A stretch of DNA of 64,000 bases. It comes from Cephalotus follicularis (lineage: Eukaryota > Streptophyta > Magnoliopsida > Oxalidales > Cephalotaceae). Shown here piece by piece: positions 6,366 to 53,487 of this stretch. The stretch is taken from the NCBI GenBank assembly GCA_001972305.1, contig BDDD01000879.1:136506-200505 (forward strand). Direction: 5' to 3'. Each line of letters begins with the position of its first letter. Positions within the stretch are counted from its first letter, which is position 1. Position numbers and translations under genes: made by a program. The notes under the pieces are model-generated. The model did no database searches. It was not told where the DNA came from and saw only the letters and a program-made list of their open reading frames with translations.

Positions 6366-6383
6366 GGTTTCTAACTTGAAACC
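6366..6383 (+). promoter_or_regulatory. Covarying leader hairpin, LTR A
   Basis: GGTTTC-TAACTT-GAAACC: six perfect pairs around the loop TAACTT, then AGAGGTAGGGG. Other families have the same loop with compensating arm changes (see 18530, 35860, 50254, 53470). The following GGTAGGG resembles a plant 5' splice site (inference). Confidence 0.75.
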
Positions 6384-6628
6384 AGAGGTAGGGGAAATTG
6401 ATGATCTTTTACATGCATTTTGAGTTTTAAGATAATGAAATGCCATTGATGACTTGCATGTTAATGGATGAATTGAAATCTCTGGATTTGTTGTGATGAC
6501 TATTGTGATGTACGGAGTAACCATGCATGTGTAAATTACATGAATATTCAAACTGGTTTGTGTAAAGGATGGATTGGTAAAGGCTTGGTGTGTTAAAACA
6601 ATAGAAACAATGTTCTGAGTTAAATAGA

Positions 6629-7050
6629 CGTCGACGCCTACATAAGGACGTCGATGTCTTCATGTGTGAATGCAACAGATGTCGATGTTTTGGTAAAACA
6701 TCGACGCCTTTTCTGGGAATTGCAAAACCTTAGTGTTCGTTGTGGACGATGAAATGCCTGCTTTTGATCGCCTGACTGGCTAATGAATTGGTGTTCTGGT
6801 TACATATTCTGATAATCGGTAGCATGCCTTACACTGTGAGAGAACGAGATTATTTGTTAAGGGTCGAATTCTCCCCCTCATAATCAAGATTCGTGAACTG
6901 ATACCTCCTGGTATCATAAAGACATCGACGTCTTTGGAAAATCATCGATGTCTTTGTTCCTAAAACGCCTGAGAATAACTGCACGAAATGTTGGCGCCTT
7001 CGGGTAAAGACGTCAACGCCCAGGGGATAAGCGTCGACGCTTATCCCCCT
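6629..7050 (+). repeat. Downstream cluster of GACGTCGACG-type palindromes, LTR A
   Basis: About ten degenerate copies of words such as ACGTCGACGCC, GACGTCGATGTC, CATCGACGCC and GACATCGACGTC, placed after the leader hairpin and before the AT-rich middle of the LTR. The word type matches the upstream cluster of the same LTR. Confidence 0.7.
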
Positions 7051-8326
7051 GTTTGGAAAAGTTTCACTCGAATGGGACCCGTTAGACCCGAAACGACTCT
7101 AGGAACGATCCTAGGTGCATTCTGAGCATATGTTTGCATTGTTACTGAAATGTGAATTGAATTGTGGTTGATTGCTAAAAAGTGTTAACCATTTTGAAAA
7201 GCTTGCATGATTATTATAATCATTAATTGTACGAAAATGTATATTTGCCAAATATATATATTTTTTCAAATGACTAGGGAAAGTATTTTCCAAAGACGGT
7301 GAAATGTTTAAAGGATTGGTTACACAATTGAACTGTATTGTTTTAAGTTTTATAACTTATCACAACCTGAGAACGGAGTAATATATTTTAAACAAAGTAA
7401 TTATATTTTATTGCTTGACTTGTACTGTACGATGTTTGTGCTTGTTGATTGTTTAGCCGTCGTGCTAAGCAACCTGTAAGGAGGGCTTGCCCTAAATCGT
7501 TCGCAAACGGGGATGGGGTAAGAGTGCATGACGTTGGGGCCAGGAGGTGGCGGCAGTCGTGACGACTTGTTTGTCTGGTTCCTTTTGGGATATACTTACT
7601 GCTTGTGTTGATGTAGCCTTATGAGGTTATACCTGTATTGTGAACATGCATATATTTACATATGTATTTACTGCGATATATATACTATACTTCATCATGA
7701 TGCATTCATTCATGATACTCATTATCATATACCTCGAACTGCATTTATGAGTTTATTCACTTAGCCGAGTGAGGACAAAGGCTAACCCCTACTGTAACAG
7801 ATTGATGGAGTGAGATTTGATATGGAGCACGCAAAGAGACTTAAGGAGAAGACTGAATTGTTTCTCTTATTTTATGTACTGGATTAATGGACAATGACTA
7901 TGTTAATTGGATATTTGTAACGGGGTTTTCATATCTGTCATGTAATGATGGATACCGTGGTTTATTTCTTTTCGTACTGTATTATCACGCTCCGTTTATG
8001 GGCGATCGACTTTGATGTTGGGTTTTTATATAAACTTTTGAGTATCACGTAGTATGGGATGCGTGATACATATTTAAATTCAGCTTATTTCATGTTATTG
8101 CTTCCGCTATTGAAAGTTTTTTTTAAAACGTAAAATCGCATAAGCTGAATTATGTTGTGTTGATTTCCTTACCGCTTTAATGTTGTCTTCTTGGAAAACA
8201 GGGTGTGACACGCGCTCCCTAGGCCAAACGCACCCAAGGCATAAAAACAAGGAATGCCCGAGCAGGAAGGAGGAAAGAAGGAAGGGTAAAACTGCGAAAG
8301 AACCCTTACTTAAACAGTTCCTCAAA

Positions 8327-8440
8327 ACTCACCGTTTAACTAAAAGAAACACGCACAACACCCACTTTGCAACGCACCGTTTAACTAAAGGGAACGTGCA
8401 CCACACCCACTGCCCAAACGCACCGTTCCGCTAATGGGAA
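8327..8440. repeat. Tandem repeat, about 48-bp unit x 2.5
   Basis: Units share CACCGTTTAACTAAA.GGAA followed by CACGCACAACACCCAC-like text and AACGCACCGTT. The three copies are imperfect. Confidence 0.7.
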
Positions 8441-9954
8441 CATGTCAGGATAGGGAGTCAGGGCAAGGAATGCAACACTACGTCTTGCTTGGGGTTCCGG
8501 GCAGGGATGCCAACACAACATGACGTAGTACAAGCCAGGCCTACGCCCTATCCTAAGACAATACTTCCCATGATAAACCATCCTTGGACATGTCCTCATT
8601 GGACGACAACACTTATCAAAAGGCTGAGCCTGGGATCAACACAAGGGCCCGGGGACAAACGCCAAGCGCATAAAACAACCACCTGAGGTCCCACCAACGC
8701 TCGAACTACACTAAGGAGATAACATCTCACCCCGGTCAGGCACCCAGGGGATCCACCAGGGCTCACCCACCAAAACATCTCCAGGGACCGTGCTGGTCCG
8801 AGGTCGGGAGGTCGGGCAAAACTAAGGGAAACTGCTTACCTACACTTAACACGTAGGGTATGCCGGGAACAACGCCCGAGGATGCCACCAGACCTCAGCT
8901 TAGGGTTAAGCAACCTGAGATGCAAGGTCAACCTAAAGGTTTGACCAACCGTGATCAAGCCACCCCTTCCTCTAGCATCTCAGTAGAGGTGCCACGCATG
9001 AAAGGCCCGAGGAGAAACACTGCAGTTTCACAAAGGCCAGGGCTGGGAAGACCTGCTACCCTACCCAGGGTCCCACAACACCTGAACTCACACGACGTCC
9101 CTGCACGCCGAAAACACTTAGCAAACACAACGCCAGGGCTGAGAGAACAGCACAAACAACAAGTATATAAAACAAAAGAATGAATTATATACACGGCCCC
9201 GGGCAAACTGCCTAGGACGCCCAACATCCAAAAGTTTTACACAAGTTTATAAGAAGGTTTTACAAGACATAGATATTAACAAAATCTATACAAAACCCCA
9301 TAAATGTCCCCAAATGCATAAGGCATCCATGGCCTAGGAGCCATGCTAAGGTGCTGCGTCCGGCGTCTACCTCTCTTTACAAGCTGTCCTTAGTGGATCT
9401 CAAGAACACTGCTGCCCCGCTCCCTCTGCACACAAAACTGAGAGGGGATTAGTCCAACTGACTAGTGAGTAAGATCAAGGAATATCCTGGGCGACCCACT
9501 TCCACCGGGGTGCCAAGAGTCAAGGTGAACGTGCCCTGCCCCAACTGGGCCGGGGACAACCCATCTCCCCTGCTCAACAAAACAAGGCAGAGGTGAAAGT
9601 ATACAAGGATATCGATAACAAAGGAAAGTCCGAGGAAACGTTAGAGCTACCAACTCAAAGACTGACCTCAAGGAAAGAAGATAAATAACAGTTTGTATAT
9701 TAGAACATGCCAAGGATCCAAGGATCAACAGAAGATCAACTCTAAGGATCAACAATTCTCAAGGGGACTACTGGTACTGTATCAATCACAAGAACATTCC
9801 ACACACGCACATGCACAATCAAACTCACACATTTCCATAGTCGAAACCACCTAGGAAGCATAAATAGCAAACTCCGTTGACGTTCTATCAACGCGATCAT
9901 GGGCTACAGGATTGAACACATCCCTCATATACTCAATATAGATACCCACTTCCA

Positions 9955-10200
9955 GAGCACCACATGAACATCGGTAGAAGGGCTACGCAAGCTCTCCTCC
10001 CCCGGCAAATCACACGTTGGCACACCTTACCACATGCACCTCGAACGAGGGGCTACGTAAGCCCACCCCCTTCGGGAATCACGAGCTCAGCACTACACTA
10101 GGTGAACCTCGATCGAGAAGCTACCTCATCGGCAATCACATGGCGTTAATATTTTCCAAGGGGCCCGTGAATCACCGCTTAGCTCCACCATTGACGAGAT
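9955..10200. repeat. Degenerate tandem array with GGGCTACGTAAGCCC core
   Basis: About three to four units of roughly 60-70 bp, each with a CACATG.ACCTCG.ACGA-like start, a GGGCTACG..AGC core and ATCAC. One core, GGGCTACGTAAGCCC, is itself a near-perfect palindrome. Confidence 0.6.
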
Positions 10201-11119
10201 AACAGAGGAGAACCTTGGCTCAGAGGTAAGTGTATCACCACTTAAACCATCTCGTGCCGGCAATCTCATACATAACCAAGTAACCAGCACCCAGTAACCA
10301 GTATCTGAGAACAACAACACATGATATCAAATAAAGCATAAATACTTAAATAGAAAGGGGAAACAACAAGTTCAACCCAGGCAAGCAGTATTCACATACA
10401 ATATCAATAAGATGACAAGAGAAGAAATCCTAATCAAAGGTAATATCATGGAAGGGTATAAAATTAACAATCTCTTAGTTATCAATTGATATAAAGGAGA
10501 AGATCCCACTCACTAGTATCAACAGCTTCCTCAGCTAGTTTCCTTGCTACGCGGGCTCCGTGCCTAGATCTTCCTCTGCAAGACCAACACACAACAACAC
10601 TTAGCTACCATGAGCAATATCTCTGAAGCTATGCAAGAACCACAAAGAACCCTGAAAACCAAGGCGAAGCTCTTCCTCGGCCTCAAAGATCATGCCTGCA
10701 CCAACCATGCGACGTACCAAAACAAACTGAGGAGAACTCTTACCTGCCAAACGCGTAGACGGGTAAAGAAAGTTCCAACCTCAGACAACGCTCAAAGCTC
10801 CAGAAGAAAGAAGTAGAAGAAGATGAAATATGAAAGCTCACTCTCCCAAAACACTTCTTCTGGCGTGAGATGATGGACATCATGTCTATCGAAGTCAACT
10901 ATTACGCTTCCAAAGCAAGATTTGCACATATCCAAACACCATCTAACACTTCTCTTATATCTTAACCCATCTTACCAACATTGGGCCTCCACCAAGCCCA
11001 AAGCCAACAACACTTAACCAAGAAGAGAAGCCTAAACCAACACAACCAAGGAGAAAAGAAAAAAAAAATTCCCCCAACCCCAAACATCAATTTATCCAAA
11101 ATTAATATGAGTCGTTACA

Positions 11120-15335: not shown

Positions 15336-15430
15336 AAGATTTTAATTGTCACGGGTCTAAATGTTCAAGGGGCTAACATTGTCTGCAGATGAAAATGGGT
15401 ATTGGCGTTGATAAATGGGTATCTACCTAT

Positions 15431-15730
15431 TTCAAACGGAGAGGACCTACCGTTTCAAAAGGCACTATCCTTTTGAAACGGTTGAAAGCTATCCGTTTCA
15501 AAGGGTAGAGTTTTTGAAACGGCGTATTCTACCGTTTTAAAAGGTTCAGGGTTTTTGAAACGGCTACAAACTTCCGTTTCAAAAGGTTAGACCTTTTGAA
15601 ACGGTAAATACTGATCCGTTCCAAATACTATACCTTTGGAAACGGACGGCGCGGCCGTTTCAAAAGGATACCCTTTTGAAACGGCCGCGTCATCCGTTTC
15701 AAAAGGGTGCGTTTCAAATAACCCTTTTTC
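15431..15730. repeat. CACTA right subterminal repeats
   Basis: A dozen or so copies of CCGTTTCAAAAGG in both orientations, often as head-to-head pairs such as CCTTTTGAAACGG next to CCGTTTCAAAAGG, able to fold into hairpins. Confidence 0.92.
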
Positions 15731-17590: not shown

Positions 17591-17602
17591 TGGTATCAGA
17601 GC
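17591..17602 (+). other. Primer-binding site of element B
   Basis: TGGTATCAGAGC five bases after the LTR end GTGACA (17585). The following leader and gag start (RGRPRAEEGGNA) run to 17755, where element C begins. Confidence 0.9.
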
Positions 17603-17755: not shown

Positions 17756-17904
17756 TGTAACACCCAAGAATTTCGCACGTTGTAATATTTGAGTTCCAAA
17801 TGTAATCTTGTTATTAAATTAATGAGAAAGATGAATTTCCCGACGAATATTTTTTGATTCGCAAATCGAATCAAAACGTTTATAAGTATCATTGTTGAAA
17901 TATT

Positions 17905-18060
17905 GATGGGGACAGTCGACTGGTGTAATAGACCAGCCGACTGGTAGACAGTTTAAGGGAATAGTCGACTGGTGGGACGAACCAGCCTACTAGTGGGCTA
18001 TCAAGCCACCTGGCCACCACAGCCAAAAGGACAGCCGACTGTCGAGAAAGAACAGCTGGC
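17905..18060 (+). repeat. Upstream CAGTCGACTG cluster, LTR C
   Basis: About six copies of ACAGTCGACTGGTG, CCAGCCGACTGGTAG and ACAGCCGACTGTCG-type words, about 240 bp before the TATA-like box. Confidence 0.78.
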
Positions 18061-18300
18061 TGGATTATGCTCTGTTTTATTTGCATGTGACGATATCACA
18101 TGCAACGACTGATGAGGAGGAATTGTGTGCCATCTGTGCGTCATGCGGCCAATGAAGAGGGAAGAGTGAACACTTGTGCGCCATGCAGGTCATAGGACAG
18201 AGAAAATCAGTCCTCTGTGTGTGTGCATGCAGATATGATAGGTGTATGGCATTTAGTGCCATGGAAAACGGGTTGGAGAACAGGGAGAGAGAACCACATG

Positions 18301-18308
18301 CATAAAAC
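18301..18308 (+). promoter_or_regulatory. TATA-like box of 5' LTR C
   Basis: CATAAAAC after AACCACATG and before a CT-rich stretch; conserved at the same place in the other Tekay-type LTRs. Confidence 0.6.
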
Positions 18309-18529
18309 GTTATTCTCTTCACCTCTCTCAACCAGTGCATGCAAAGAAAGAAAAACCAGTGGAAATTCACAGAGAAAAACAGTGAAGAATCTTGAGAGAA
18401 AGAGAGAGAGTTTCAAAAAATTTTGAACCAAGAGGAGCTGGATGTGACGGGTCAGAGCTACTGGACTTGGAGTTGAAGCGCCTGGGAGCTCAAAACGTCA
18501 CTGTTGGAACAGAAAGAGGTGGACTTACA

Positions 18530-18547
18530 GATTCCTAACTTGGAATC
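18530..18547 (+). promoter_or_regulatory. Covarying leader hairpin, 5' LTR C
   Basis: GATTCC-TAACTT-GGAATC, six perfect pairs, then AAAAGGTAGGGG. Compared with LTR A, pairs 2 and 5 change on both sides (G-C to A-T, T-A to C-G). Confidence 0.78.
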
Positions 18548-18879
18548 AAAAGGTAGGGGAAGTTATGCTACATTTTGAGTTCAAGATTACTGAATGTTAT
18601 ACGATTGGTTGCCTGTTTGTACGAGCTGTGACTTTCAGTAGGTATGCCATGGTTACTGTTGGATTTTGTATGCCACGCTTACTGTTGAGAATCTTTGAGT
18701 TTATGTACATGCATATTGAGTTTTATCTTGGTATTAAATTGCTGGATAAAATGCATGTTACTGTTGTGTTATATGAACCTTTGGAGAACAGTTGGTTGAT
18801 TTTCCATGTTATGAATACATGCGGGTTGCTTGCAATGATCCTTTTGGGTAATATTTTGGATTGCATGCAACTGGTTTCC

Positions 18880-19060
18880 CAAAACAGTCGACTGTCGAAG
18901 GAAGACAACCGACTGCTCAACCGAAACAGTCGACTGTTGAAGGAGAATAGTCGACTACCTGATGAACAAGTCGACTGGTAGAAGGTACCAGCCGACTACT
19001 CATGTACTGATTTCTCAGAACAGCCGGCTGGTGAAGAATCCAGCCGATTTCCAAGCTGCT
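18880..19060 (+). repeat. Downstream CAGTCGACTG cluster, 5' LTR C
   Basis: About eight copies, for example AACAGTCGACTGTCGAAGGA, ACAACCGACTGCTCAACCGA, AACAGTCGACTGTTGAAGGA and CAAGTCGACTGGTAGAAGG. Confidence 0.8.
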
Positions 19061-20371
19061 GTTTGGGTCTCTCTTGCTTAAAACAATGAGTGACGATCCC
19101 GACTCCGTTTAGGATGCATTAGAGCATTTGTATGCATCGCATATGTACTGTTTACTGCCTGTTTATGAACTGTTTATTAATTGATTATGATTTCTAAGTA
19201 TTGTTACATTAGAAATGCATATACTAGTTGAAAACCACTATGTTGAGTACGAAAATATAAAATGAATATTGTTATATTTTCGAACATCTTTGGGAAGCGA
19301 TTTCCACTACTGAACTGTTTAAATTACTTTCTATCTATAAGAAATACATATTTCAAATGTTATCACTTTTGAAAATATTTGGAAATGAACTTCCTGTTGT
19401 TGATATAACGATCATTACCGTACTGTTTACTGCACTGTTTACTGTGACTATTCACTGTTTCTCTGTGAATTTACTGTGTTTGTGCTTGAGTCACTAGTTG
19501 CATGGCAGGGACTGCCAGCGTTGGCTAGTGGCAGGGTTGACCCAGGGGCCAGGAGTTGGCTGGGTAACTCACTGCACTGTACAGTTGTCTTGCTTGGTTG
19601 CCTAGAGAAGGGACCGAAGTGGGAGTGTAACGTGGGGCCAGGAGTTGGCGGTGTGACACATACTACCTACCTGTTGTGGTCCTTTTATGGACTTACTGTA
19701 CTGTTTACTGGTCCTGTTCGGACATTACTGTGACTGTTGATGTGGCCATGGCTGGGTTACTACTGTACTGTTGTTGCATACATATATTTTTCATATATGT
19801 TTCTACTGATATTTTACCGTACTATTAAATTATATATATTTTTTCACATATATATAAACTGGTATTTCTACTCTACTGCATCATTTGTGAATACATTACA
19901 TGACATGCATGTAAAATTGGGCCCAAAGTACTTTTATGACTTAGCCGAATGAGGACAAAGGCTAACCCCCTACTTTACAGATTGACGCAGTGGACCGGTT
20001 GGACTAGCTTGGACGAAGAACAAGCCCTTATGTTATTGTTGTTGGTTCTATATCCTTCTGGATTGTAATAAACTGGTTTTGTTTTAAGGAATACTAATGT
20101 ACGTACTTTTGGTTTTGTTTAACGATGGGTTTTAATAATGTATTATGAATCACGCTCCGTTTATGGGCTTTTAACAACGACAGACTTGTATTGAGCAGCG
20201 TGCGGTATGGGATGCACGTTACGAGTTTTTCAGCATATGAGTTTAATGCTTCCGCAACTGATATCATGTTTGAAAAGTTTAAGTTTTATGATTTTTCATG
20301 AGCTGAATCTTTATGTCAATTGCCTTTACTGCTTTTATGTGTGTCTACCTGAAACCAGGGCGTGACAAGAG

Positions 20372-20383
20372 TGGTATCAGAGC
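20372..20383 (+). other. Primer-binding site of element C
   Basis: TGGTATCAGAGC four bases after the 5' LTR end. Confidence 0.93.
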
Positions 20384-20479
20384 ATATTCCATATATGCTT
20401 AGTTAGGATATTTTCCTTGGCAATCAATATGTTGTTTTCCTAAAGTCATGACTAATCATCATCCTTCTTATAGGAACCA

Positions 20480-21600
20480 ATGGATCGAAGGAGAACACGT
20501 TCTAGGGCTAGAGCTGTTAGAGCCAATGCCCCTGAGGAAGCAAATGTTCCGCAAGGGATGAATGTCCCCCGGGATGAGAGAGATCCGATGACCTTAATTA
20601 CGGATTATTTTCAGCAACATATGTCCTTTAATATGGCTAATGCGGAGGAGATGCGCCAGTACTACGCGCAAGCTCGGCCGCGACATGGAGCTCCTGACCA
20701 TTTTTCGGTAGAGGATGGTAACTAGTTTGGGAGAGACATTGAAAGGTTCATGAGGCAGAATCCACCCAGTTTCCGGGGGGAACTTGATACCACCGTTGCC
20801 GAGAGATGGCTGCAGGATTTAGAGAAAATCTTTAAAGTAATGGATTGTACTGACAATCAAAAATTGAAGTTTGATGTATACCGTCTATGGGGTGAGGCCA
20901 CTCATTGGTGGGAGATGGTCAAACAAAAATGGGAATCTCAGAGGCTTGAGAGCACTTGGGGCAGATTCTAGGCAGAGTTCTTGGAGACCTATGTTCCACT
21001 AATTGAACAAGAGCGACGGGAGACGGAGCTCATGGAGTTGCGACAGGGAGAGATGACCGTGACAGAATATCAAGCAAGGTTCATGGAGCTAGCCAGACAT
21101 TCACCCTATCTGGTAGCTGACGAAGTGAAGAAGATACAGAGATTTCTGAGAGGTCTACGGCCGGATCTTCGATCAAGAATTAGATCTATGGAACTGGGGA
21201 CTTTTGTGGAGGTTGCACAGAAAGCGTGATTACTGGAGACCATATACAATGAAGACCGGGCTGAGAGAGCTCGTGTACAGCAGAATAAATTGAGTCCTAC
21301 ACAATCCAGACAAGCATCGTTGAAATGGCAGGATGGTGGTTCTCATCCAAGAACAAATCTCAGTAGACCGCTTCACAGGGTTCTCCCAGCCAAGGGAGTA
21401 ATACTAGATCCGGAGGTTGTTACTATTGTGGGCGCACAGGACACCAACAGAAAGATTGCTGGAGGTTTAATGGCTGGTGCTTGTGGTGTGGGGCACCTGG
21501 TCATTTAGTGAAAGACTGTCCAAAGAGTTCAGCTACAGCGCCTACATGGCCAGGAAGTAGTGGTGGTGCGGTGGCGGGACCGTCAGAGGGGAAGGACACT
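20480..21600 (+). pseudogene. gag of element C (fossil)
   Basis: Same gag as element A: MDRRRTRSRARAVRANAPEE start, FMRQNPPSFRGELD core, LWGEATHWWEMV, MTVTEYQARFMELARHSPYL, and a zinc-knuckle region about 21410-21530 (WCGAPGHLVKDCP). Broken in several places. Confidence 0.9.
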
Positions 21601-24600
21601 AGTAAGGGCATCGCAAAAGGTAGAGTTTTTGTACTTGCTCAGACAGAGGTTCCAGAGTCGACTTCCGTTGTTGGAGGTACTCTGTATATATATGGTTTTT
21701 CTGCTAGATTGTTGATGGATTCTGGAGCATCTCATTCCTTTATATCTACACGTTTTGCATCTTGCTTAGATGTTACCCCTGACTGCATGTCATATGTGCT
21801 CTATGTGAGTACGCAAATTGGGGCTTCTATGTACACTGACTCGATATATAGGAGTTGTGAGATGTCTATGGTAGGCATTTCTTTGTATGCAAATTTGATA
21901 GTACTGCCTATCCGTGACTTCGATGTTATACTGGGGATGGATTGGCTTTCAGCACACCGTGCTCGCATGGATTGTTATAATAAAACTGTGGATTTTTGTC
22001 TGCCCGACGGAATGACATTCCAGTTCAATGGAGACAAAGGGTTCTCGACACCGATCATATCCTTTATTCGAGCATTGAAGTATCTAGAGAGGGGATGCGA
22101 AGGATACCTGGCTTATGTAATTGATCGAAGGAAAGAGAAGGGTTTGAGCATGGAGGAAATTCTGGTTGTGTGTGAATTTCTGGATTTATTTCCTGATGAC
22201 TTGGGGTCTTTACCATGGAGGAGGAGTATGGAGTTCGTTATTGATCTTGTTCCAGGAATGGCTCCTATCTCTAAATCACCTTATCGGATGGCTTCTGCCG
22301 TGTTTCGAGAGCTAAAGTCATAGTTACAAGAGGTGATTGATAAGGGTTTTGTTAGACCCAGTGTTTCTCTGTGTGGTGCGCCTGTGTTATTTGTCAAGAA
22401 GAAAGATGGGTCGGTGAGGCTTTGCATCGACTACAGAATGTTGAACAAGGCAACTATCAAGAACAAGTATCCTTTACCCCATATCGAGGATTTTTTGACC
22501 AGTTGCAAGGATCAAGCTCGAATTGAGATCGGGTTATCACCAACTGAGAGTAAGGGAAGGAGACATTGAGAAGACTGACTTCCAGACACGGTATGGTCAC
22601 TACAAGTTCTTGGTAATGTCGTTTGGTGTTACCAATGCACCAGCAGCTTTAATGTCGTTGATGAACGACGTATTGCGGACATACCTAGATCAGTTTGTCG
22701 TAGTGTTTATTGACGACATACTGGTATACTCGAGGAGTGATGAAGAGCACACTCATCATATGAGGCTAGTATTGCAGGTTCTTAGAGAGCATAGGTTGTA
22801 CGCCAAGTTCGGCAAGTGTGAATTCTGGCATGATCACTTTTCAAGGATAGCCGTGCCCTTGACTAGACTGACCCTGAAGAAGACCTTATTTGTCTTGAAC
22901 AAAGATTGTGAAGCTAGTTTCCGTGAACTGAAGGATCGGTTAGTTTTCGCTCCTATCTTGGCATTACCTGATGGTAATGACGGCCTTGTAGTCTACAGTG
23001 ATGCATCGGGTAAGGTCTTGGACTGCGTGCTGATGCAGCAAGGAAGAGTGATCGCTTATGCTTCTAGGAAGCTAAAGCCTTATGAAGAAAACTACCCGAC
23101 ACGTGATCTTGAACTCACAGCTATTATCTTCGCCCTTCAGAAGTGGAGGCACTATATTTATGGGGCGCAGTTTGAGATCTTTACAGATCATAAGAGTTTG
23201 AGGTACCTGTTCTGTCAGGACACACTGAACATGAGGTAACGAAGATGGGTGGAATTCTTTAACGATTATGATTGCAGTGTCTAGTACCACCCGGGGAAAG
23301 CGAATATGGTCGCTGATGCCTTGAGTCACAAGGCTATGGTTGCCAGTACGATGGTGTCGCAATGGAAGAAGTTAGAAGACTTCCAAGAGTTGTTTCCGTT
23401 TAATCTGTCACCTGGAGTTTTTATGGCTAGTATGAGAGTACAGCCAATTTTTCTTGACGAAACAAAGAACGCTCAAGCACTCGATCCTGAATTGCAAAAG
23501 ATTCGAGAGAATCTGGACTCGGAGTCTGATTTTCGGGTACATGCCGATGGTGTTTTAAGATTTCGGGGACGTGTGTGTCTTCCGAATGAACCCGGGTTGA
23601 AGAGTGAGTTACTTTACGGGTCTCATAGATCTCAGTACAGCATTCACCCTGGTAGCACAAAAATGTACCAAGACATGAAGAGGGATTACTGGTGGCATGG
23701 CATGAAACGAGAGATCGCTGAGTATGTGGCAAGGTGTTTGACCTGCCAGAAAGTTAAGGCCAAGCACCAAAGACCGACAGGGTGGCTACAACCTTTACCA
23801 ATTCCAGAGTGGAAGTGGGAACATGTTACGATGGATTTTGTTTCGGGTTTTCCTCTGACTTGGAACCGTCACAACACCGTGTGGGTTATCATGGATAGAC
23901 TCACCAAATCATCGCACTTTCTACCTACACACGTCGCTGAATATGCGAGCAAGCTGGCTCATTTATATGTGAAGGAGATAGTGAGGCTAGACGGTGTTCC
24001 AGTCAGCATCGTATGTGATAGAGATGCCATCCTCACTTCCAATTTTTGGAAGAGATTTCAGATAGCTTTTGGGAAGAAGCTGAACCTGAGTACTGCCTTT
24101 CACCCTCATACCAATGGGCAGTCTGAGCGTACCATCCAGACCTTGGAGGATATGCTACAGGCTTGCGTTATTGACCTATCTGGTACATGGGAGGATCACA
24201 TTCCTTTGATAGAGTTCTCTTATAATAACAGCTATCATTCCAGTATCGGCATGGCACGGTTTGAAGCACTGTATGGGAGAAAGTGCAGATATCCTGTTTG
24301 TTGGGATGAGGTCAGGGAGCGACCTTTACTCGGGATTGAGTTAGTGGAGGAAACTTCAGAAAAGATCAAGATGATTAAAGATAAGCTGCTTGCTGCTCAG
24401 AGCTGGAAGAAGAGCTATGTGGACAATGTCAAGAGGAGGCCTTTGACCTTCAGTGTTGGTGATCATGTGTTCTTAAAGGTTTCAACATTGAAGGGCGTGC
24501 AAAGGTTTGGGAAAAGGGGCAAGTTAGCTCCTCGCTATATTGGTCCTTTTGAAATCTTGGAGAGAGTTGGGGAGGTAGCCTACCAGCTTGCCTTACCTCC

Positions 24601-24871
24601 TGCACTGTCAAAGGTGCACGACGTCTTCCATGTGTCTATGTTGAGGAGATATATCGCGGACCCGTCACATGTCCTGGGTTATGATACTGTTCCTGTACAA
24701 GATGACTTATCTTGTGAGGAGTTGCCTGTACGGATTCTAGATTGGAAGACGCAGACTTTGAGGAACCGAGCTATCTCCATGGTCAAGGTTCAATGGCAGT
24801 TCCACCGACCGGATGAGGCCACTTGGGAACATGAGGAGGATAACCGAAAGCGTTACCCGCACTTGTTCTAG
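21600..24871 (+). pseudogene. pol of element C (fossil)
   Basis: Protease (about 21640-22000, LLMDSGASHSFIS); reverse transcriptase (about 22170-22960, FIDD at 22706-22717); RNase H (about 22960-23310, [18 protein letters not shown]); integrase zinc region, DDE core and GPY/F-like region (about 23430-24640, [39 protein letters not shown]); chromodomain-like tail (about 24720-24868, RILDWKTQTLRNR, MVKVQWQFHRPDE). The RNase H-to-integrase part has the longest open frame; the RT part is broken. Confidence 0.94.
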
Positions 24872-24904
24872 TATTGTTTCTAATTTCGAGGATGAAATTC
24901 CTTG

Positions 24905-24917
24905 AAGGAGGGGTGGA
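24905..24917 (+). other. Polypurine tract of element C
   Basis: AAGGAGGGGTGGA directly before TGTAACGCCC. Confidence 0.93.
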
Positions 24918-27529
24918 TGTAACGCCCGGGAATTTTGCACGTTGTAGTATTTGAGTTCCAAATGTAATCTTGTTATTAAATTAATTAGAAAGATGAATTT
25001 CCTAACTAATATTTTTTGATTCGCAAATCGAATCAAAATGCTTATAAGTATCATTGTTGAAATATTAACGGGGACAGTCGATTGGTGCACTAGACCAGCC
25101 GACTGGTAGACAGTTTAAGGGAATAGTCGACTGGTGGGACGAACCAGCCTACCGGTGGGCTGTCGAGCCACCTGGAAACCACAGCCAAGAGGACAGCCGA
25201 CTGTCGGGAAAGAACATCCGGCTAGATTATGCTCTGTTTTATTTGCATGTGACGAGATCACATGGAACGACTGATGAGGAGGAATTGTGTGCCATCTGTG
25301 CGTCATGCGGCCAATGCAGAGGGAAGAGTGAACACCTGTGCGCCATGTAGGTCATAGGATAGGCAAAATCAGCCATGTGTGTGCGTGCATGCAGATATGA
25401 GAGGTGTATGGCATTTAGTGCCATGGAAAACGGGTTGGAGAAGAGGGAGAGAGAACCACCTGCATAAAACGCTCTTCTCTTCACCTCTCTCGACCAGTGC
25501 ATGAAAAGAAAGAAAAACCAGTGAAAATTCACAGAGAAAAACAGTGAAGAATCTTGAGAGAAAGAGAGACAGCTTCTCAAATTGTTGAACCAAGAGGAGC
25601 TGGACGTGACGGGTTAGAGCTACTGGACTTGGAGTTAAAGCGCCTGGGAGCTCAAAACGTCACTGTTGGAGCACAAAGAGGTGGACTTACAGATTCCTAA
25701 CTTGGAATCAAAAGGTAGGGGAAGTTATGTTGTATTTTGAGTCCAAGATTATTGAATGTTATACGATCGGTTGCCTATTTGTACGAGCTGTGACTTTCAG
25801 TAGGTATGCCATGGTTACTGTTGGTTTTTGTATGCCATGCTTACTGTTGAGAATCTTTGAGTTTATGTACATGCATATTGAGTTTTATCTTGGTATTAAA
25901 TTGCTGGATAAAATGCATGTTACTGTTGTGTTCTATGAACCTTTGGAGAACAATTGGTTGATTTTCCGTCTTATGAATACATGTGGGTTGCTTTCAATGA
26001 TCCGTTTGGGTAATATTTTGGATTGCATGCAACTGGTTTCCTAGAATAGTCGACTATCGAAGGAAGACAGCCGACTGCTCAACCGAAACAGTCGACTGTT
26101 GAAGGAGAACAATCGATTGCCTGATGAACAAGTCAACTAGTAGAAGGTACCAGCCAACTACTCATGTACTGATTTCTCAGAACAGCCGGCTGGTGAAGAA
26201 TCCAGCCGACTGCCAAGCTGCTGTTTGTGTCTCTCGTTCTTAAAATGATGCGCGACAATCCCGACTCCGTTTAGGATGATTAGAGCATTTGTATGCATCA
26301 CATATGTACTCTTTACTGTCTATTTATGGACTGTTTATTAATTGATTATGATTTCTAAGTATTGTTACATTAGAAATGCATATATTAGTTGAAAACCACG
26401 ATGTTGAGTACGAAAATATAAAATGAATATTGTTATATTTTTGAACATCTTTGGAAAGCGATTTCCACTACTAATCTGTTTAAAGTACTTTCTATCTATT
26501 AGAAATACAGATTTCAAATGTTATCACTTTTGAAAATATTTGGATATCAACTGCCTGTTATTGATCTAATGATCATTACCGTACTGTTTACTGCACTATT
26601 TACTGTGACTATTCACTATTGCTCTGTGAATTTACTGTGTTTGTGCTTGAGTCACTATTTGCGTGGCGGGGACTGCCAGCGTTGGCTAGTGGCAGGGTTG
26701 ACCTAGGGGCCATGAGTTGGCTGGGTAACTCACTGTACTGTACTATTGTCTTGCTTGGTTGCCTGGAGAAGTGACCGAAGTGGGAGTGTAATGTGGGGCC
26801 AGGAGTTGGCGGCGTTACACATACTGCCTGCCTGTTGTGGTCCTTTTGCGAACTTACTGTACTGTTTACTGGTCCTGTTCGGACATTACTGTGACTGTTG
26901 ATGTGGCCATGGCTGGGTTACTACTGTACTGTTGTTGCATACATATATTTTTCATATATGTTTCTACTGATATTTTACCATACTGTTAAATTATATATAT
27001 ATTTTCACATATATATAAACTGGTATTTCTACTGTACTGTATCATTTGTGCATACATTACATGACATGCATGTAATATTGGGCCCAAAGTACTTTTATGA
27101 CTTAGCCGAGTGAGGGCAAAGGCTAACCCCAAACTTTACAGATTGATGAAGTGGACCGGTTGGACTAGCTTGGACGAAGAACAAGCCCTTATGTTATTGT
27201 TGTTGGTTCTATGTCCTTCTGGATTGTAATAAACTGGTTTTGTTTTAAGGACTACTAATGTACCGTACTTTTGGTTTTGTTTAATAATGGGTTTTAATAA
27301 TGTATTATGAATCACGCTCCGTTTATGGGCTTTTAACTAGGACAGACTTGTATTGAGTAGCGTGCAGTATGAAATGCACATTACGATTTTTTTAGCTTAT
27401 GAGTTTAATGCTTCCGCAACTGATATCATGTTTGAAAAGTTTAAATTTTATGTTTTTGCATGAGCTGAATCTTTATGTCAATTGCCTTTACCGCTTTTAT
27501 GTGTGTCTACCTGAAACCGGGGTGTGACA
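24918..27529 (+). repeat. 3' LTR of element C
   Basis: 2612 bp, ends GGTGTGACA. Same internal order as the 5' copy: palindrome clusters at about 25070-25210 and 26040-26220, TATA-like box 25463-25470, leader hairpin 25692-25709 (GATTCC-TAACTT-GGAATC), TTAGCC hairpin 27102-27126. Confidence 0.96.
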
Positions 27530-35050: not shown

Positions 35051-36265
35051 TGTAACGCCCGGTATTTTCCTGAATGTAATATTTCGATTTATGATGTAAT
35101 CATTAAACTTGATTTAATGAGAATGTTGAGTTTTGAACTCAAAGGATGCTTGCAAACCCTACTTATGACTTTGGAAATGGAATGTATGTTAAAAGCTTGA
35201 AACGACACTGTTTTGGGACAAAGACATCGACGTCTTTGGAAAGACGTCGACGCCTTTGGGGGTGAAATACAAAAAGAATGAACGTCGACATTGAGAGAAG
35301 GCATCGACACCTTCTTACAAAAATGGAAAAGACATCGACGTCCAAGGAAAGACGTCGACGCCTTTGTAGGAACGTCTGTCGAGCTTTTTCGCTGGCAGAG
35401 TAACATGCAAGGGGAATTGTTTAGAGGCTTTACCTAATGCCTTTTCAAGTGCGTTTCGATGTGTTGAGCATATTGGTGTACTGGCCAGGAGCACTAAAAC
35501 CTACCCTCACATGGAACATGCAAGGAATTGTGCCATCCTATCATGCAACCTGCAAAAGGGAGATTAGAAAACAAAAAGAAATGCAGAAAACCTGGAAGTG
35601 GGAGAGAGCACGAGGGGGGCCTGTGAAATGGCAGAAGAAGGAGGTTAGGTAGGAGCCATCTGCATAAGAATATCCCTCCCCACTTATCTCTCTCGTTTTA
35701 AAAACACCAGAAGAAAGAGAGGGAAGAAAACAGTGAGTGTGAGCCACCATTGTTAAGTTTGCTTGAAGCTTGAGGTTGGAGCTCGTGGGTAGCAGTTGCT
35801 AAGGGATCTTGGAGCTGCTGGAAGCCAGAACTTGGGAACTTAAAGAGGTGGACTTTCCAGTTCCTAACTTGGAACAATAAGGTAGGGGAAAGTGATGGAT
35901 TTATACATGCATTTTGAGTTCTAAGTTAATGAATAAACATGGTGAATTACATGTTAATGACTGGATTGTGATTCTGGAATTGTTGTAGTGTTACTGTGAT
36001 ACACTGAGTTGAACACGCATGTACTATTACATGAATACGTGAATCTGTTGTGTAAAGGATGGATTTGTTAATGGTCTGGTGTGTCAAAACAGTGGAAAAC
36101 ACGTTCTGGGCTGTAAAGACATCGACGTCCGTGTAAAGACGTCGATGCCTTCGTGTGGATATGTGAAAGACATCGATGCTTTGATAAAAGACATCGACGC
36201 CTTTTCTGGGAAATTGTTGAACTGTGATATTCGTTTCAGATGGCCATTTAAGCTGCCATTGGTTA
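35051..36265 (+). mobile_element. A-like LTR piece nested in the OTA-like LTR
   Basis: Starts TGTAACGCCCGG and follows LTR A through the first palindrome cluster (about 35221-35370), leader hairpin (35860-35875) and second cluster (about 36110-36205), then stops matching. About 1.2 kb, incomplete. This is a third insertion level inside element G, which itself lies in B. The right border is approximate. Confidence 0.75.
35860..35875 (+). promoter_or_regulatory. Covarying leader hairpin, nested A-like LTR
   Basis: GTTCC-TAACTT-GGAAC, five pairs, then AATAAGGTAGGGG. Pair 2 is G-C as in A and pair 5 is C-G as in C: a third arm combination. Confidence 0.75.
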
Positions 36266-36758: not shown

Positions 36759-36776
36759 AATTCCTAACTTGGAATC
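36759..36776 (+). promoter_or_regulatory. Leader hairpin, 5' LTR G
   Basis: AATTCC-TAACTT-GGAATC, five pairs, then AGAGGTAGGGA. The 3' LTR copy is 44028-44045 (GATTCG-TAACTT-GGAATC). Confidence 0.7.
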
Positions 36777-43780: not shown

Positions 43781-45525
43781 GCATGGTACCTTGCATGCGG
43801 GTGAGAGAGAGAATGAGAGAAACTCTCCATAAAACACACCACTCACCTTCACCTTCTTATGCCTCCACCGAAAGAGAAAGGAAATAGTGAGAAAAGAAAG
43901 CAGTATCCTCCATTGTTGCACCTGGGAAGCTTAAGGCTAGGGAGTTGGGAACTCAAACTTGGAGCTACTACGCCGAACCTCGAAGCTCAAAAGCCACTGG
44001 TCGGTAAAGCTTAAAGAGGTGGACTTCGATTCGTAACTTGGAATCAGAGGTAGGGATCATATGACTGTATTTTTTAGTTCAGTTATAATGAGAGTCGTTT
44101 CATGAAACGCGTGAATGGTGGGTTGTGGTTTGTCTTGAATGATAACTTGTTATGCCTATACTATTTTGGGTGAATATGGACTAAGTGTTGAATGTGTTGT
44201 TTTGCTTGGATCCTTTGTTGTTTGACTTGGTTGTGCATTACAATGGAAGAGACGCTATTATGGTCTCACAGACGTTGATGGCTAGAGTGCACGTCGACGC
44301 CTTGGTCTGTCATATGAAAGAAAAGAACGCACGACGCATTGACGTCTAAGGTTCCTTACCTTAGAGCGTCGACCCCAAGAGAATACATGTTGACGCCTAA
44401 GTGTCTGTCAGGGACATGGTGTGCTATTAACGTTGACACCTAGGGCTTGTATTGACGCCTAGTGCGAATGTTGGCACCTTAGGGGGTTGCCATGCACGTT
44501 GATGCCTAAGAGAACTTCTTTACACGTTGACGCTTATAAGGTATACGTTTACACCAAAAGAGACTGATCACGTTTTGGAGCACAAGGTGGCGCACACGTT
44601 GACGCCTGGAGTTAGGTGTTGACGCCAAAAGGGTCTGTCTACATTTTGAGCATATGTTTGCCTGCATATTGTTATGATTGGTCGAGCTTACCTAGCCTTG
44701 TGTCGGTCAGCGTTGATATATGTGTGATCGAACTATCAAACTATTCCTAAAATGTTTTTATCATTTAAGAAAAGTATATACAATGATTTTTCTATAAATC
44801 ATTTCTTCATATGAAATATTATATTTCAATGGATTGAAATGATGTTTCAAAAGACTGTTACAAATTTTGAATAAATATGTTATGACAAGTATTTTATGGT
44901 ATATAATTTACTTAGATTTCAAAAGGATTTGTTACACATATTTAATAAACATATGAGTATTTCAAGCGTTTATTACACATAAACCACTTGGAAATGGATT
45001 TGAATTGTTGATTATACAATTTGAATAAATGTGGTATTTCAAGCGTTATTATATATAGCTACTTGAGAATGAGTTTATGGATTGTTCCTAGCACCACGGG
45101 ACGGTTAGCCTGCCAGCTTACCCATCTCGGGGCCGGTTAGTTTGTTTGATTGTGGGATGTTGTTCCTAGCCTTGGACGGTCAGCTTGCGTGCCTTTCTAG
45201 CCTTGTCCGGTTAACATCATTGAGTGGTCGGGCTTCCTAGATTTGTGTCGGTTGCCTCGATACATATGGATTGTGGTTGTAGTCACTAGGCATGATTGTT
45301 CCGCATTGATAAGATACATATATATGTATATATGTATATACATTGTACATTGCATCATGAATGCATTTATTTCATGACATATGTTATCATTGTTCCCAAG
45401 GTACTTTTATGTTTTCTCTACTTAGCCAGTGGATTCGGCTAAAACTATCAATTTCAGATTGATGTAGGGGTCTTGACGCTGTTCAAGCATGGGGAAAGCG
45501 AAGCGAAAATGAAGTTGTATTTATT
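43234..45525 (+). repeat. 3' LTR of element G, main part
   Basis: Parallels the 5' LTR from its start to about position 38200. Has the TATA-like CATAAAAC (43828-43835), an (AG)n tract, a leader hairpin (44028-44045), palindrome clusters (about 43395-43610 and 44270-44640) and the TTAGCC hairpin (45422-45442). Element D follows directly at 45526; 52020-52115 continues this LTR on the far side of D. Confidence 0.9.
43744..43779. repeat. (AG)n microsatellite
   Basis: About 18 AG units in LTR G; the 5' copy has only a short AG run near 34300. Open frames across it are not genes. Confidence 0.92.
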
Positions 45526-49410: not shown

Positions 49411-49442
49411 TCTTGTTGAATTTCGAGGACGAAGTCCTTTTG

Positions 49443-49455
49443 AAGGAGGGGTGGA
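49443..49455 (+). other. Polypurine tract of element D
   Basis: AAGGAGGGGTGGA before TGTAACGCCCGG. Confidence 0.92.
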
Positions 49456-52019
49456 TGTAACGCCCGGAAATTTCATGTATTGTAATTTCACAATGTAATG
49501 TACTTTATTGTGGAATCAATAAAATGATGGATTTTTCCTAATTTGATGATGTTTTCCCAAACTATGATGATGTTGATGTTAAACAGATTATGTACTTAGA
49601 AGTGTGATTACTTGGTATGTACACTGGAGGCAGTCGACTGGCATGGAAGCCCAGCCGACTGGATGGCTGCGTATGGGAGCAGTCGACTGGTGGGATGAAC
49701 CAGGCGACTGGCCAACTGTCGAGCCACCTGGCAATGATTGCCAGGCGAGCAGCCAGCTGCTAGGTGTGGACAGCCGACTAGATCGTGCTCTGTTTTGTTG
49801 CATGTGGCAGAAATCACATGCTACAACTGACAGATGGAAGTGGATGCCATCTATGCTTCATGCAGCTAAAGGAAAGGATAAAGGGGACACCTGTGGATCA
49901 TGCAAACTTCATGGGGTAGAGAAATTAGACCTGTGAGTGTGTGCATGCATGTGAATGAGGGGGTGTGGCATTTAGTGCCATGTGAGGGAGCTAGGGGAGA
50001 AGGGAAGAGAAAAGCCTCTGCATAAAACGCCTCTCCTCACTTCTCTCATCCAGGTACTGAGAGGCCAAAGAACCAAAGGAAACAGTAGAGAAAAACACAA
50101 AGAAAAGAGGGAAGAAGAGTGTTTTTTTTTTCATTGTTGTAGTTTGGAGCTCGGGTGGGAGCTGTTGGGCTGTTCGTGGAGCTGCTGGACTGTTCTTGGA
50201 GCTTCTGGGAGGCTCAAAGATACTGGAAAGGAGACACAAAGAGGTGGACTTCCGATTTCTAACTTGAAATCAAAGGTAGGGGAAATAGTAGAGAATTCTA
50301 TGCATGCATTTTGAGTTTAAAGAGTAATGATGTTATAAATGGATGATGTAGTTGTCTGGCTGTGGATTTATGTATTGATGTTGTGGTTACTGTTAATAAA
50401 TAACCTGACATGCACACTGAATTTTGGATGGAGTTTTGGATTGGTTTTCATGCAATACCATGTTTGGGTTTCATTTGAATTACAATGAAAACGGAGAATA
50501 ATGCATGAATTGAGTTGTGTTTTAGACCATGATATGATTACTGGTGACATACTGGGGTCTGAATACGCGTGGATAAATTCCAAATGCTTGTTGAATGGAT
50601 TTAGAAGGGAATTACTGGTACTGTCAAGCCCAGAACAGCCGACTGTTTAAGTAAAACAGTCGACTACTCGATCATCCAGCCGACTGTCAAGTAAGAACAG
50701 TCGACTGTGCATGCATTTTGCCCAGAACAGTAGACTGTCAAAGGAAGACAGTCGACTGCTGATTACTCGTGATGAACAAGTCGACTGTTGGGGAAGAATA
50801 GTCGACTGTCTCAAGGATCCAGCCTACTGTTATGGAAATATAGCCGACTGATATAACATAAATTGAATCTTTAGAGAAGGTGATAGGCCTAGGTTAAATA
50901 CCCATAACCCTAGGTGCATTCTGAGCATGTGTTTGCCCTGCATTTGAACTACTACTGTACTGTAAATTGATTTTGGTTGATTACTAAATGTATTAACCAT
51001 CTTGGAAAAACTTGCATGATTATTATAATCATTTTTGGTAAGAAAATGTATATTTGACAAATATAGACTTATATTTTCAAATGACTGGGGGAGTATTCCC
51101 AAAGACGGAGAAATGTATTGTTTTAAGTATTACAACTTATAACAACTTGATAATTGGTAATATATTTTAAACAAATATATTTTGATCAAGTAATCATATT
51201 TTGTTGCTTGACTTGTATTGAACTGTGATTGTAAGCTCTTGATTACTCAGCCGCTGTGCTAAGTAACCTGCTGTTGGTTTACCCGCCGTGCTAAGCAACA
51301 TACGGAGGACTTGCTCCAAATCGTTTGCAAACGGGGATGGGGTAAGAGTGCATGACGTTGGGGCCAGGAGGTGGCGACGGTTATGACGACCTGCTTGTCT
51401 GGTTCCTTTAGGGGACATACTTACTACCTGTGTTGATATAGCCTTATGAGGTTATACATGTACTGTGAACATGCATATGTTTTTATATGTAAATACGGAG
51501 ATATAATTACTGAGAAAATTATATGTCATACTGCATCACTATGCATCCATTCATGATACGCATTACCTTTGACCTTGAACTGTATACATGAACTTTTCTA
51601 CTTAGCCGAGTGAGGACAAAGGCTAACCCCCCTACTGTAACAGATTGATGGAATGGGTTTTGATATAGAGCACGCATGGAGACTTAAAGAGAAGACTAAG
51701 TTGTTTCTCTTATTTCATGTACTATATTACTGAACAATAATTATGTAACTGGATCATTGTAACTTGGGTTTATTTTATTTCATACTGTATTATCACGCTC
51801 CGTTTATGGGCGATCAACGATGATGTTGGGATTTATATAAACTATGTGGGTATCACGTAGTATGGGATGCGTGATACATATTTAAATTCAACTTATTTCA
51901 TGTTATTGCTTCTGCTACTGAAGATTTTGTTTATACGTTTTATCGCATGAGCTGAATTATGTTGTGTTGATTGCCTTACCGCTTTATTGTTATCCTTCTT
52001 GGAAAATGGGGGCGTGACA
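49456..52019 (+). repeat. 3' LTR of element D
   Basis: 2564 bp, ends GGGCGTGACA. First third resembles LTR C (CAGTCGACTG clusters at about 49628-49790 and 50630-50860, GAGCCACCTGGC). From about 50870 to the end it follows LTR A (CTAGGTGCATTCTGAGCAT, GTAATCATATTTTGTTGCTT). TATA-like CATAAAAC at 50021-50028; hairpin 50254-50271; TTAGCC hairpin 51602-51626. Confidence 0.94.
50254..50271 (+). promoter_or_regulatory. Covarying leader hairpin, LTR D
   Basis: GATTTC-TAACTT-GAAATC, six perfect pairs, then AAAGGTAGGGG. Pair 2 is A-T as in C and pair 5 is T-A as in A: the fourth arm combination. Confidence 0.78.
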
Positions 52020-52115
52020 ATTATTGATGGATTATATTTGATCATGCTCCATTGTGGGCAATTAACAATGTCGGTATTGTGTCATTATTAAATGTTGGTA
52101 ACATGTAGTATGGGA
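52020..52115 (+). repeat. Tail piece of 3' LTR of element G
   Basis: Matches 5' LTR G from about 38245 (ATTATTGATGGATTATRTTTG) through GTAGTATGGGAT, then changes to element H sequence. Confidence 0.88.
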
Positions 52116-52779
52116 TTAATGTTAGTAACCGCCGAATGTGGGAGTCCCTAGCTACTTCCACTCTGTGTTTAGTAGCCCAGTTACTTCAGCTCTGCGTTTA
52201 GTATCCACTGTACGGGAAACCGTAGCTGCTTCTACTCAGTGTTTAACAGCTCACTCATGTGAAACTCCTAGTTACTTCCACTTAGTGTGTAGTAACTAAT
52301 GCGGAATTCCCATCATAGTCCATCAATCAATTCAGTCAAAGGATGCGTACACTCTATGTTTACACCTAGTTACATTACACTTTGAGATTTGTAACCAATA
52401 AATCATTTCAATCAATCCTTTTCCAAGTAGATTATAAGTTATAAGATACTTCAAAATAATACATTCTTCAAACAGTAGTTTTCTTTTCGAAAACGGTAAA
52501 ACAGTTCAGTAACCATGCCTCTCATTGGAGGAAAATAGTACAGTACAGTAATTCTCACTTGTAGAAAACAGTAAACGGTAACGGTGGCAGTACCTCTCAT
52601 AGGAGGAAAACAATAAAATACTGTAACAGTGGGATACCTTGAAAAGTACCCATAGTACTTATTTCCTTAAAATCCTTCAACAGTAGTAATTCTATAAAAT
52701 ACGTTGATAGATATAAACTATCAATAATAGTAATAACTTTCAGTAATGCAAGCAACATATGCTCAGAATGCAAATAGTC

Positions 52780-53260
52780 CATTTGGCGTCGACATGCAAC
52801 TTATGCGTCAATGCGTTCCTTATGCGCCAACGTTTATCTTAGGTGTTAACGTGTATCTTAGTACCTTTAGGCGTTAACTTGTAACTTATGTGTCAATGCG
52901 TACATCAATTCCCCTTGCGTCAACACATGCCTCTCTAGGCGTCGACGTGTAACATATGCGTCAACACGCATAATAGTCCTTCTAGGCGTCAACACATCAG
53001 ATATGCTTTAACGTGTACAACAGACCCTCACGAGTCAGCACTTCAGTCCTTTGCATCGACGCTCTAAGGTAGGAAGCTTAGGCGTCAACGTCTATATCCT
53101 TTTGGCGTCGATGATATAAGGTAGGAACCTTAAGCGTCAGTGCCTTATCTCTAGGCGTCGGCGTCTCCTCATGGCGTCGATGCTTAAAGCGTCTTCTTCC
53201 CTGTATAACAGGCCAAGGTGTTGATGTCTTCCCTCTAGGCGTAGACGTCTGTAGAACCAG
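52780..53260 (-). repeat. GGCGTCGACG-type cluster, LTR H
   Basis: About fifteen decayed copies of GGCGTCGACG/GCGTCAACGC-type words about every 25-35 bp, the longest such cluster in the window. Confidence 0.7.
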
Positions 53261-53469
53261 AACAATACCACAATGCGCTAGTGTATCAAACTAGCTGGAA
53301 TCATGCATACAACACATGCAAATCAATCCATTTTCACTCCGGGTCTTACCATGCATACAGGTTATGGCATACCTCAACATGCACAGTCACAATCCAACGC
53401 TCATGCATTTCACCAAATGAACATCCACTATTTTTGAACTCAAAATACAAGTATATAGTCCCTACCTTA

Positions 53470-53487
53470 GATCCCAAGTTAGGAATC
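53470..53487 (-). promoter_or_regulatory. Leader hairpin, LTR H
   Basis: Minus strand GATTCC-TAACTT-GGGATC, six pairs including one G-T wobble, then TAAGGTAGGGA. Confidence 0.72.

Follow-up and report, generated by a model that had tools for sequence, protein, structure and literature searches.

Hairpins in the LTRs of a 64-kb stretch of Cephalotus DNA

We analysed 64,000 nucleotides of the Cephalotus follicularis genome (contig BDDD01000879.1, positions 136,506 to 200,505; hereafter the window, whose own numbering is used throughout), in which long terminal repeat (LTR) retrotransposons carry an 18-base hairpin with the loop TAACTT next to a putative 5′ splice site, GGTAGGG. Open reading frames (ORFs) of the window matched the Pfam families RVP_2, RVT_1, RT_RNaseH, Integrase_H2C2 and SH3_Tf2-1, i.e. 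the protease, reverse transcriptase, RNase H and integrase domains of the Ty3 type, and a further protein search of the window returned Retrotrans_gag, RVP_2 and RVT_1. Element C is bounded by LTRs at 17756-20367 and 24918-27529 that are 93.4% alike; it has the ends TGTAAC..TGACA, the target repeat TGCCC and the primer site TGGTATCAGAGC, which we take to be of the initiator-Met tRNA type. The hairpin-bearing elements are probably Ty3 chromoviruses of the Tekay/Del clade, a name that we assume from the long LTRs and the LTR ends. One of the ten proteins searched gave a Chromo match (E 7e-05, 23.1 bits) that lay below the curated cut-off of 25.1.

Scanning the whole window for hairpins with a TAACTT loop in this context revealed eight, seven on the plus and one on the minus strand (Table 1). 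All are at the places given in a first-pass annotation of this DNA, which had spoken of nine copies while listing eight. As it had also described, GGTAGGG lies a few bases downstream of the hairpin in 8/8 copies, arm pairs 2 and 5 occur in all four combinations, and the H copy contains a wobble pair. The upstream CATAAAAC box, which it had placed before every copy, is exact and 199-233 bases before the hairpin in six copies and is found ∼2.4 kb before the insert-bearing G copy; in the 35860 copy it is altered. The word TAACTT alone is at chance level (48 in the window versus 47 expected), and an extra 5-bp hairpin with this loop, at 29982-29997, lacks the context altogether; hence it is the whole arrangement that matters. 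Rfam had no match above its gathering score in the window.

The hairpin block is abundant and conserved genome-wide

To place these copies in context, we searched the genome that contains the window (1.58 Gb, 9,746 contigs; its size and element content are those of a plant), using the same patterns read backwards as controls. The exact 18-mer GATTCCTAACTTGGAATC was present 5,271 times and once in reverse, and GGTAGGG adjoined six of eight fetched loci with this 18-mer (L001-L008) that had been picked without regard to their flanks. The arrangement of the block is far above chance: GAGGTGGACTT-N6-12-TAACTT-N8-16-GGTAGGG occurred at 14,047 places versus 25 for the reversed pattern. To avoid selecting on the hairpin itself, we also searched with the flanks only (AAAGAGGTGGACTT-N18-32-GGTAGGG), which gave 15,120 places versus 25 in the control. 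Loop and arm statistics were taken from 100 of these places, the first in contig order.

In these 100 places the loop read TAACTT in 85, with bases 1-4 and 6 kept in 98-100% and base 5 being T in 90%; the invariance of the loop noted in the first-pass annotation is thus true of the window (8/8 copies) and not of the genome. Pairs 1-4 were paired in 96-100 places, pair 5 in 93 and pair 6 in 59. Counting the inner pairs only, 484 of 500 cells were paired; when the 3′ arms were shuffled 1,000 times, the number was 433 on average and never above 444. Pair 2 was C-G in 55 places, T-A in 39 and T-G in two, pair 5 was G-C in 57 and A-T in 34, and pair 4 was T-A in 87 and C-G in 11. In a conservation profile of 28 LTR copies, the top 20-base windows coincided with the hairpin block (0.87 and 0.92); further peaks were a mid-intron block (0.88), a block ending in YAG/ATTG (0.79-0.85; the slash marks a predicted splice junction here and below) and several lesser ones. 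A search of viral contigs found no relatives, and two places in Flavobacteriaceae, from a wider collection of genome contigs, were taken as chance.

Compensatory changes in the hairpin arms

For tests against ancestry, 41 distinct copies were kept from 62 loci and the window, after removal of copies that departed from the strict pattern, lay near a locus end or were duplicates. When both flanks together were used to build the tree, pair 2 required six changes on its 5′ side and seven on its 3′ side; the corresponding numbers were five and six on a tree of the upstream flank only, and six and seven with the downstream flank only. We then scored covariation along the lines of R-scape, with an average-product-corrected G statistic over 98 columns and 60 tree simulations that kept the observed number of changes per column. 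Pair 2 ranked first of 4,753 column pairs, with a score of 42.7 versus a null maximum of 38.0, and pair 5 ranked fifth, its score of 26.3 exceeding the maximum of its own null (14.6); pairs 1 and 3 were constant on one side. Sliding the 3′ arm by one to three bases reduced pairing from 200 of 205 cells to at most 125. Compensatory change is supported at pair 2 and suggestive at pair 5. The proposal of a selected RNA hairpin is supported by the covariation of pair 2 above the tree-based null, by changes that recur on three trees and by the loss of pairing when the arm is slid. L041, L043, L053 and copy A of the window (6366) take different places in the upstream and downstream trees, which suggests exchange between families in the vicinity of the hairpin block.

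An ATG boundary coincides with GGTAGGG

The distribution of ATG in the 41 copies changes sharply at the GT of GGTAGGG. The 200 bases upstream contained 17 ATGs versus 83.7 expected from dinucleotide shuffles, with none at all in 28 copies, while the 200 bases downstream contained 492 versus 400 expected. In 25-base bins, ATG density per 100 bases was 0-0.5 from −200 to −1, 4-9 over the 200 bases that begin at the GT and ∼2-4 over the following 200; it was 3.0-5.5 from −400 to −251, the expected promoter region. Upstream of the GT, ATG was the most depleted of 63 trinucleotides (ratio 0.20) while CAT was enriched (1.43), so the bias is strand-specific. The same pattern was obtained with 15 representatives that are < 72% identical (6 versus 35 before the GT; 177 versus 147 after it). 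This profile looks like selection against upstream starts, as would be expected if the mRNA retains the sequence as far as the GT and loses the part that comes next.

Base composition changes at the same point: T content is ∼22% in the bins upstream of the GT (−200 to −1) and ∼38% in those from 0 to 199, a step of ∼16 points. Introns of plants are richer in U than their exons, as stated in the available part of PMC3735527. The base preceding GGT, which the search pattern left free, was A in 98 of the 100 flank-anchored places, so the site reads AG/GTAGGG. The ATG boundary, the step in T content and the conserved acceptors described below give strong, though indirect, support to reading GGTAGGG as a 5′ splice site, to which the first-pass annotation had noted a resemblance. 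As a separate observation, CAG was the most depleted trinucleotide in the first 200 bases past the donor of the 41 copies (16 versus 48), as if acceptor-like triplets were avoided at the start of the intron.

Candidate acceptors and the predicted leader intron

An acceptor-like motif preceding gag, GTGACTAAY-N6-18-TTATAG/GAACN1-3ATGGA, had 2,650 copies in the genome versus five in the control; the element C site is one base off this pattern, in its first word. Among ten distinct element starts with a primer site, the acceptor AG was kept in six (L048, L049, L051, L057, element C and the element with its primer site at 848), and in the starts that keep it the distance to the gag ATG is short, i.e. 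six bases in element C. The most likely intron of element C would comprise 18553-20473, or 1,921 bases, and span the primer binding site. More generally, we predict for these Ty3 elements a leader intron from inside the LTR to just before gag, with the hairpin closing exon 1. A conserved donor, a branch-like site, an acceptor and a U-rich intron start are all present, with losses in single copies.

A second acceptor-like motif lies within the LTR. The pattern GGCTAACCCC..ACAG/ATTGAYGCAGTGGA was found at 5,269 genome places versus nine in the control. Its upstream tract is variable, and the YAG was kept in 27 of the 41 copies (followed by ATTG in 26), usually ∼1.0-1.6 kb from the donor; a few lie farther away and may belong to another LTR. 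Because ATG did not drop downstream of this acceptor (25 sites), the gag acceptor is the better match for the translated mRNA. The LTR acceptor probably does not lead the main gag mRNA, and may instead serve short or 3′ LTR transcripts. A pairing of GTAGGGG with CCCCTAC at the LTR acceptor was considered and set aside as not general, because the acceptor side differs in other families. A second potential hairpin, TTAGCC..GGCTAA at 19941-19965, spans the branch-like CTAAC of the LTR acceptor; its arms hardly vary, so that covariation says little about it. The mid-intron block (∼19113-19149, 0.86-0.88) centres on GAGCATATGTTTGCATTGCA, has equivalent places in L039-L058 and is possibly a poly(A) region or a regulatory site.

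Table 1. Hairpin copies, predicted splice sites and associated features in the window
Feature	Position	Strand	Details
gag acceptor (predicted), element with primer site at 848	924..960	+	AG 948-949; ATG 956-958; gag domain in frame 950-1519
Hairpin copy A	6366..6383	+	GGTTTC-TAACTT-GAAACC; donor GGTAGGG 6387-6393; 5′ flank GAGGTGGACTT starts 6351
TATA-like box CATAAAAC (putative function)	18301..18308	+	ATG-poor stretch starts ∼25-50 bases downstream
5′ flank GAGGTGGACTT of copy C, conserved	18516..18526	+	
Hairpin copy C, 5′ LTR of 17756-27529 element	18530..18547	+	GATTCC-TAACTT-GGAATC
GGTAGGG, predicted 5′ splice site AG/GT	18552..18558	+	Intron from 18553; ATG and T-content step at GT
LTR acceptor-like block	19941..19994	+	TTAGCC..GGCTAACCCCCTACTTTACAG/ATTGACGCAGTGGA; AG 19979-19980
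Primer binding site TGGTATCAGAGC	20372..20383	+	Within predicted intron
gag acceptor (predicted), element C	20449..20482	+	TGACTAAT branch-like site; pyrimidine-rich tract; AG 20472-20473; exon 2 from 20474; gag ATG 20480-20482
Hairpin copy C, 3′ LTR of 17756-27529 element	25692..25709	+	GGTAGGG at 25714
Hairpin copy, nested A-like	35860..35875	+	GTTCC-TAACTT-GGAAC; GGTAGGG at 35881
Hairpin copy G, 5 bp	36760..36775	+	ATTCC-TAACTT-GGAAT; GGTAGGG at 36780
Hairpin copy G, closing pair broken	44028..44045	+	GATTCG-TAACTT-GGAATC; GGTAGGG at 44049
Hairpin copy D	50254..50271	+	GATTTC-TAACTT-GAAATC; GGTAGGG at 50275
Hairpin copy H	53470..53487	−	GATTCC-TAACTT-GGGATC; GGTAGGG at 53466-53460

Discussion

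The hairpin, the covariation of its second pair, the ATG boundary and the conserved acceptor motifs are the observations from which we propose that the hairpin stands at the end of exon 1, that GGTAGGG is the donor of a leader intron and that the hairpin tunes splicing at this site; taken as a whole, we give this proposal about an even chance of being correct. Untranslated exon 1 would start shortly past the CATAAAAC box and end at GGTAGGG, and the intron would begin in the LTR, include the primer binding site and end at an acceptor from which six bases lead to the gag ATG. By splicing, the upstream ATGs, of which the predicted intron of element C contains 56, would be lost and a gag-pol mRNA formed. 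The spliced RNA would be translatable and would not be copied in the usual way; the unspliced RNA would keep the primer binding site, and thus be copyable, and would translate gag poorly. Most likely, the hairpin and the conserved sequence of its loop and 5′ flank would bind a splicing factor or shape the donor such that splicing is partial; five bases separate the end of the hairpin from the donor GT in element C. A bolder and rather doubtful extension is that AAAGAGGTGGACTT and the covarying UAACUU hairpin form a bipartite module beside an LTR-borne donor which, bound by a host or element protein, would set the balance of spliced gag-pol mRNA and unspliced genomic RNA across a plant Ty3 clade.

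Several points weigh against the proposal of a hairpin-tuned leader intron. We infer splicing itself, the partition of the RNA and the effect of the hairpin on splicing from sequence, and the evidence comes from one genome. The 5′ splice consensus is GTAAGT, from which GTAGGG differs at two positions, and a YATAAAA box was found in only 18 of the 41 copies in the stretch searched. Exon 1 of element C contains one or two ATGs, according to where it is taken to start, and in a control window 807-1007 bases past the GT there were 178 ATGs versus 216 expected; therefore, ATG richness is not kept through the whole intron. The AG of the gag acceptor is lost in three of the ten element starts (L044, the G element and the one at 17591) and ambiguous in one (L040); the YAG of the LTR acceptor is lost in three of the 41 copies and not seen or cut off in 11. 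As to covariation, which the first-pass annotation had proposed to test with R-scape, pair 2 exceeded the null, whereas pairs 4 and 6 were within their own null maxima and the score of pair 5 was about that of a typical all-pairs null maximum (median 26.6). Moreover, several copies take different places in the two single-flank trees, so that exchange between copies is likely and part of the arm changes may have been transferred as blocks; pair 2 still needs several switches on every tree, and T-G intermediates exist (2/100). Finally, three exact junction patterns found no intronless copy in the genome, which would fit a spliced RNA that is not copied and also fits no splicing. A fourth exact pattern had a single match, at G000:C1402:351818-351853 (minus strand), which joins the hairpin flank GAGGTGGACTTTCCAGT to a terminus resembling that of the LTR acceptor, ..TAACAGATTGA; it looks more like a deletion between the two conserved blocks than like a product of splicing.

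How the hairpin would act on the donor is a separate matter. The first-pass annotation had suggested that it could hide or present the site. An alternative fold in which the loop pairs with the donor was predicted with a probability > 0.5 in 14 of the 41 copies, but when the loop was permuted (15 copies folded), eight of 60 arrangements, the real one included, scored at least as high as the real loop. Loop-donor pairing is thus not exceptional among permuted loops, which leaves the suggestion not established, and we make no claim of a donor-hiding RNA switch. A pseudoknot between the loop and a downstream AAGTTA, seen by eye in copy C, was likewise rejected, as the word is absent from that place in the other families of the window.

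In the spliced RNA of element C the hairpin would lie 11 bases upstream of the gag AUG, so that a second, translational role is possible. One may go further and suppose that the leader intron is real and that the hairpin acts in translation, either positioning or recruiting the ribosome or binding Gag to switch translation off. Folding results bear on this: when the 150 bases ending at the donor were folded alone, the mean probability of the hairpin was 0.80 (> 0.5 in 33 of 41 copies), compared with 0.45 (16 of 41) for 60 exon and 40 intron bases, the latter being a further point against our main proposal, and 0.58 (25 of 41) in a wider context. Exon 1 on its own hence favours the hairpin, and the acceptor is close to the gag ATG where it is kept. 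On the other hand, 5′ flank, hairpin and donor always come together in the anchored searches, and the GT follows the hairpin after no more than a few bases; this argues for a role at the donor. We think that the hairpin would act on the donor, with translation its next most likely role, albeit an unlikely one as the sole explanation.

Retroviral leader hairpins serve as packaging, dimer or strand-transfer signals, and the Cephalotus hairpin could be such a signal of the genomic RNA, the nearby GT being incidental or separately selected. Both its place, in the 5′ leader of an LTR retrotransposon, and the strong conservation of loop and flank would suit this function. However, if splicing occurs, the spliced RNA carries the hairpin too, so it would not mark the genomic form, and the ATG boundary sits at the GT; we rank a packaging function below a translational one.

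An improbable explanation is that the arms form a DNA palindrome, e.g. a transcription-factor site in the LTR, whose changes were inherited or spread by recombination. There is indeed an inverted repeat inside the LTR, and exchange between copies is likely. Nevertheless, the loop is asymmetric and conserved, orientation to the donor is fixed in the anchored searches, pair 2 shows the T-G wobble in 2/100 places, and the same stretch has the strand-specific ATG bias. Absence of any splicing, with shunting or internal entry and an ATG-free stretch that precedes a small LTR ORF just past GGTAGGG, is very improbable: the first ATG does come 8-80 bases past the GT, and in four of 41 copies the frame there runs to 103-138 codons or a comparable length (L039, 103; the window C copies, 138 and 105; the next longest, 46), but the median frame from the first ATG is nine codons, the frame of copy C has no Pfam match, for which reasons a small LTR-encoded protein was rejected, and the conserved acceptors and the T-content step speak against it.

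In some retroviral leaders the major splice donor lies in or next to a hairpin (SL2 of human immunodeficiency virus), and the donors of human T-cell leukaemia virus (HTLV) and foamy viruses are in R. The Cephalotus arrangement would be analogous, with a 5′ splice site in the LTR or leader accompanied by a hairpin and a division into spliced and genomic RNA; those are vertebrate retroviruses, however, and the likeness considered here is one of arrangement.

Regulated splicing of plant LTR retrotransposons is already known, namely in BARE1, EVADE, Ogre and some sunflower elements, according to sources that were available in part, as were all those cited here; we did not find the combination of this intron with a conserved RNA element described. 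The Ty1/copia element BARE1 of barley has distinct RNA pools, including a spliced gag RNA (PMC3735527). As proposed here, translated and copied RNAs of a plant LTR retrotransposon are thus separated partly by splicing, and the intron is U-richer than the exons. In contrast, the BARE1 intron is 104 nucleotides long and lies at the gag/pr border, whereas the one predicted here is ∼1.9 kb and extends from the LTR to before gag, and the accessible description of BARE1 contains no hairpin (PMC3735527). The intron of Ogre and the shGAG splicing of EVADE are likewise cases in which a part of the transcripts of a plant LTR element is spliced, but the available text describes for neither a leader intron starting in the LTR (PMC6317226, PMC12786077). 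Sireviruses also have highly conserved palindromic or structured motifs in non-coding regions. Unlike the present elements they are Ty1/copia, with CGG-CCG boxes upstream of the TATA and an inverted repeat at the polypurine tract, and no donor-linked hairpin appears in the part of the source seen (PMC2829016).

According to the portion available of a 2025 review, plant LTR elements are generally without introns, Ogre and EVADE being the exceptions (PMC12786077). A literature search, with subscription papers mostly outside its reach and some sources partial, yielded no LTR-starting leader intron of Tekay/Del elements and no donor hairpin, and in the same open literature there was no account of how gag is translated behind a ∼2-kb leader full of ATGs or of how translation and copying are separated. 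In a survey of LTR models, length variation prevented the modelling of plant Ty3 LTRs, as its accessible part reports (PMC3601003), and a block like the present one may have escaped notice for that reason. Plant genomes contain such elements in very large numbers (15,120 places with the flank pattern here), and a leader intron starting in the LTR would, if true, change their annotation. Elsewhere in the window, 15450-15706 forms an imperfect inverted repeat of ∼250 bases that is 73-75% alike to its own reverse complement.

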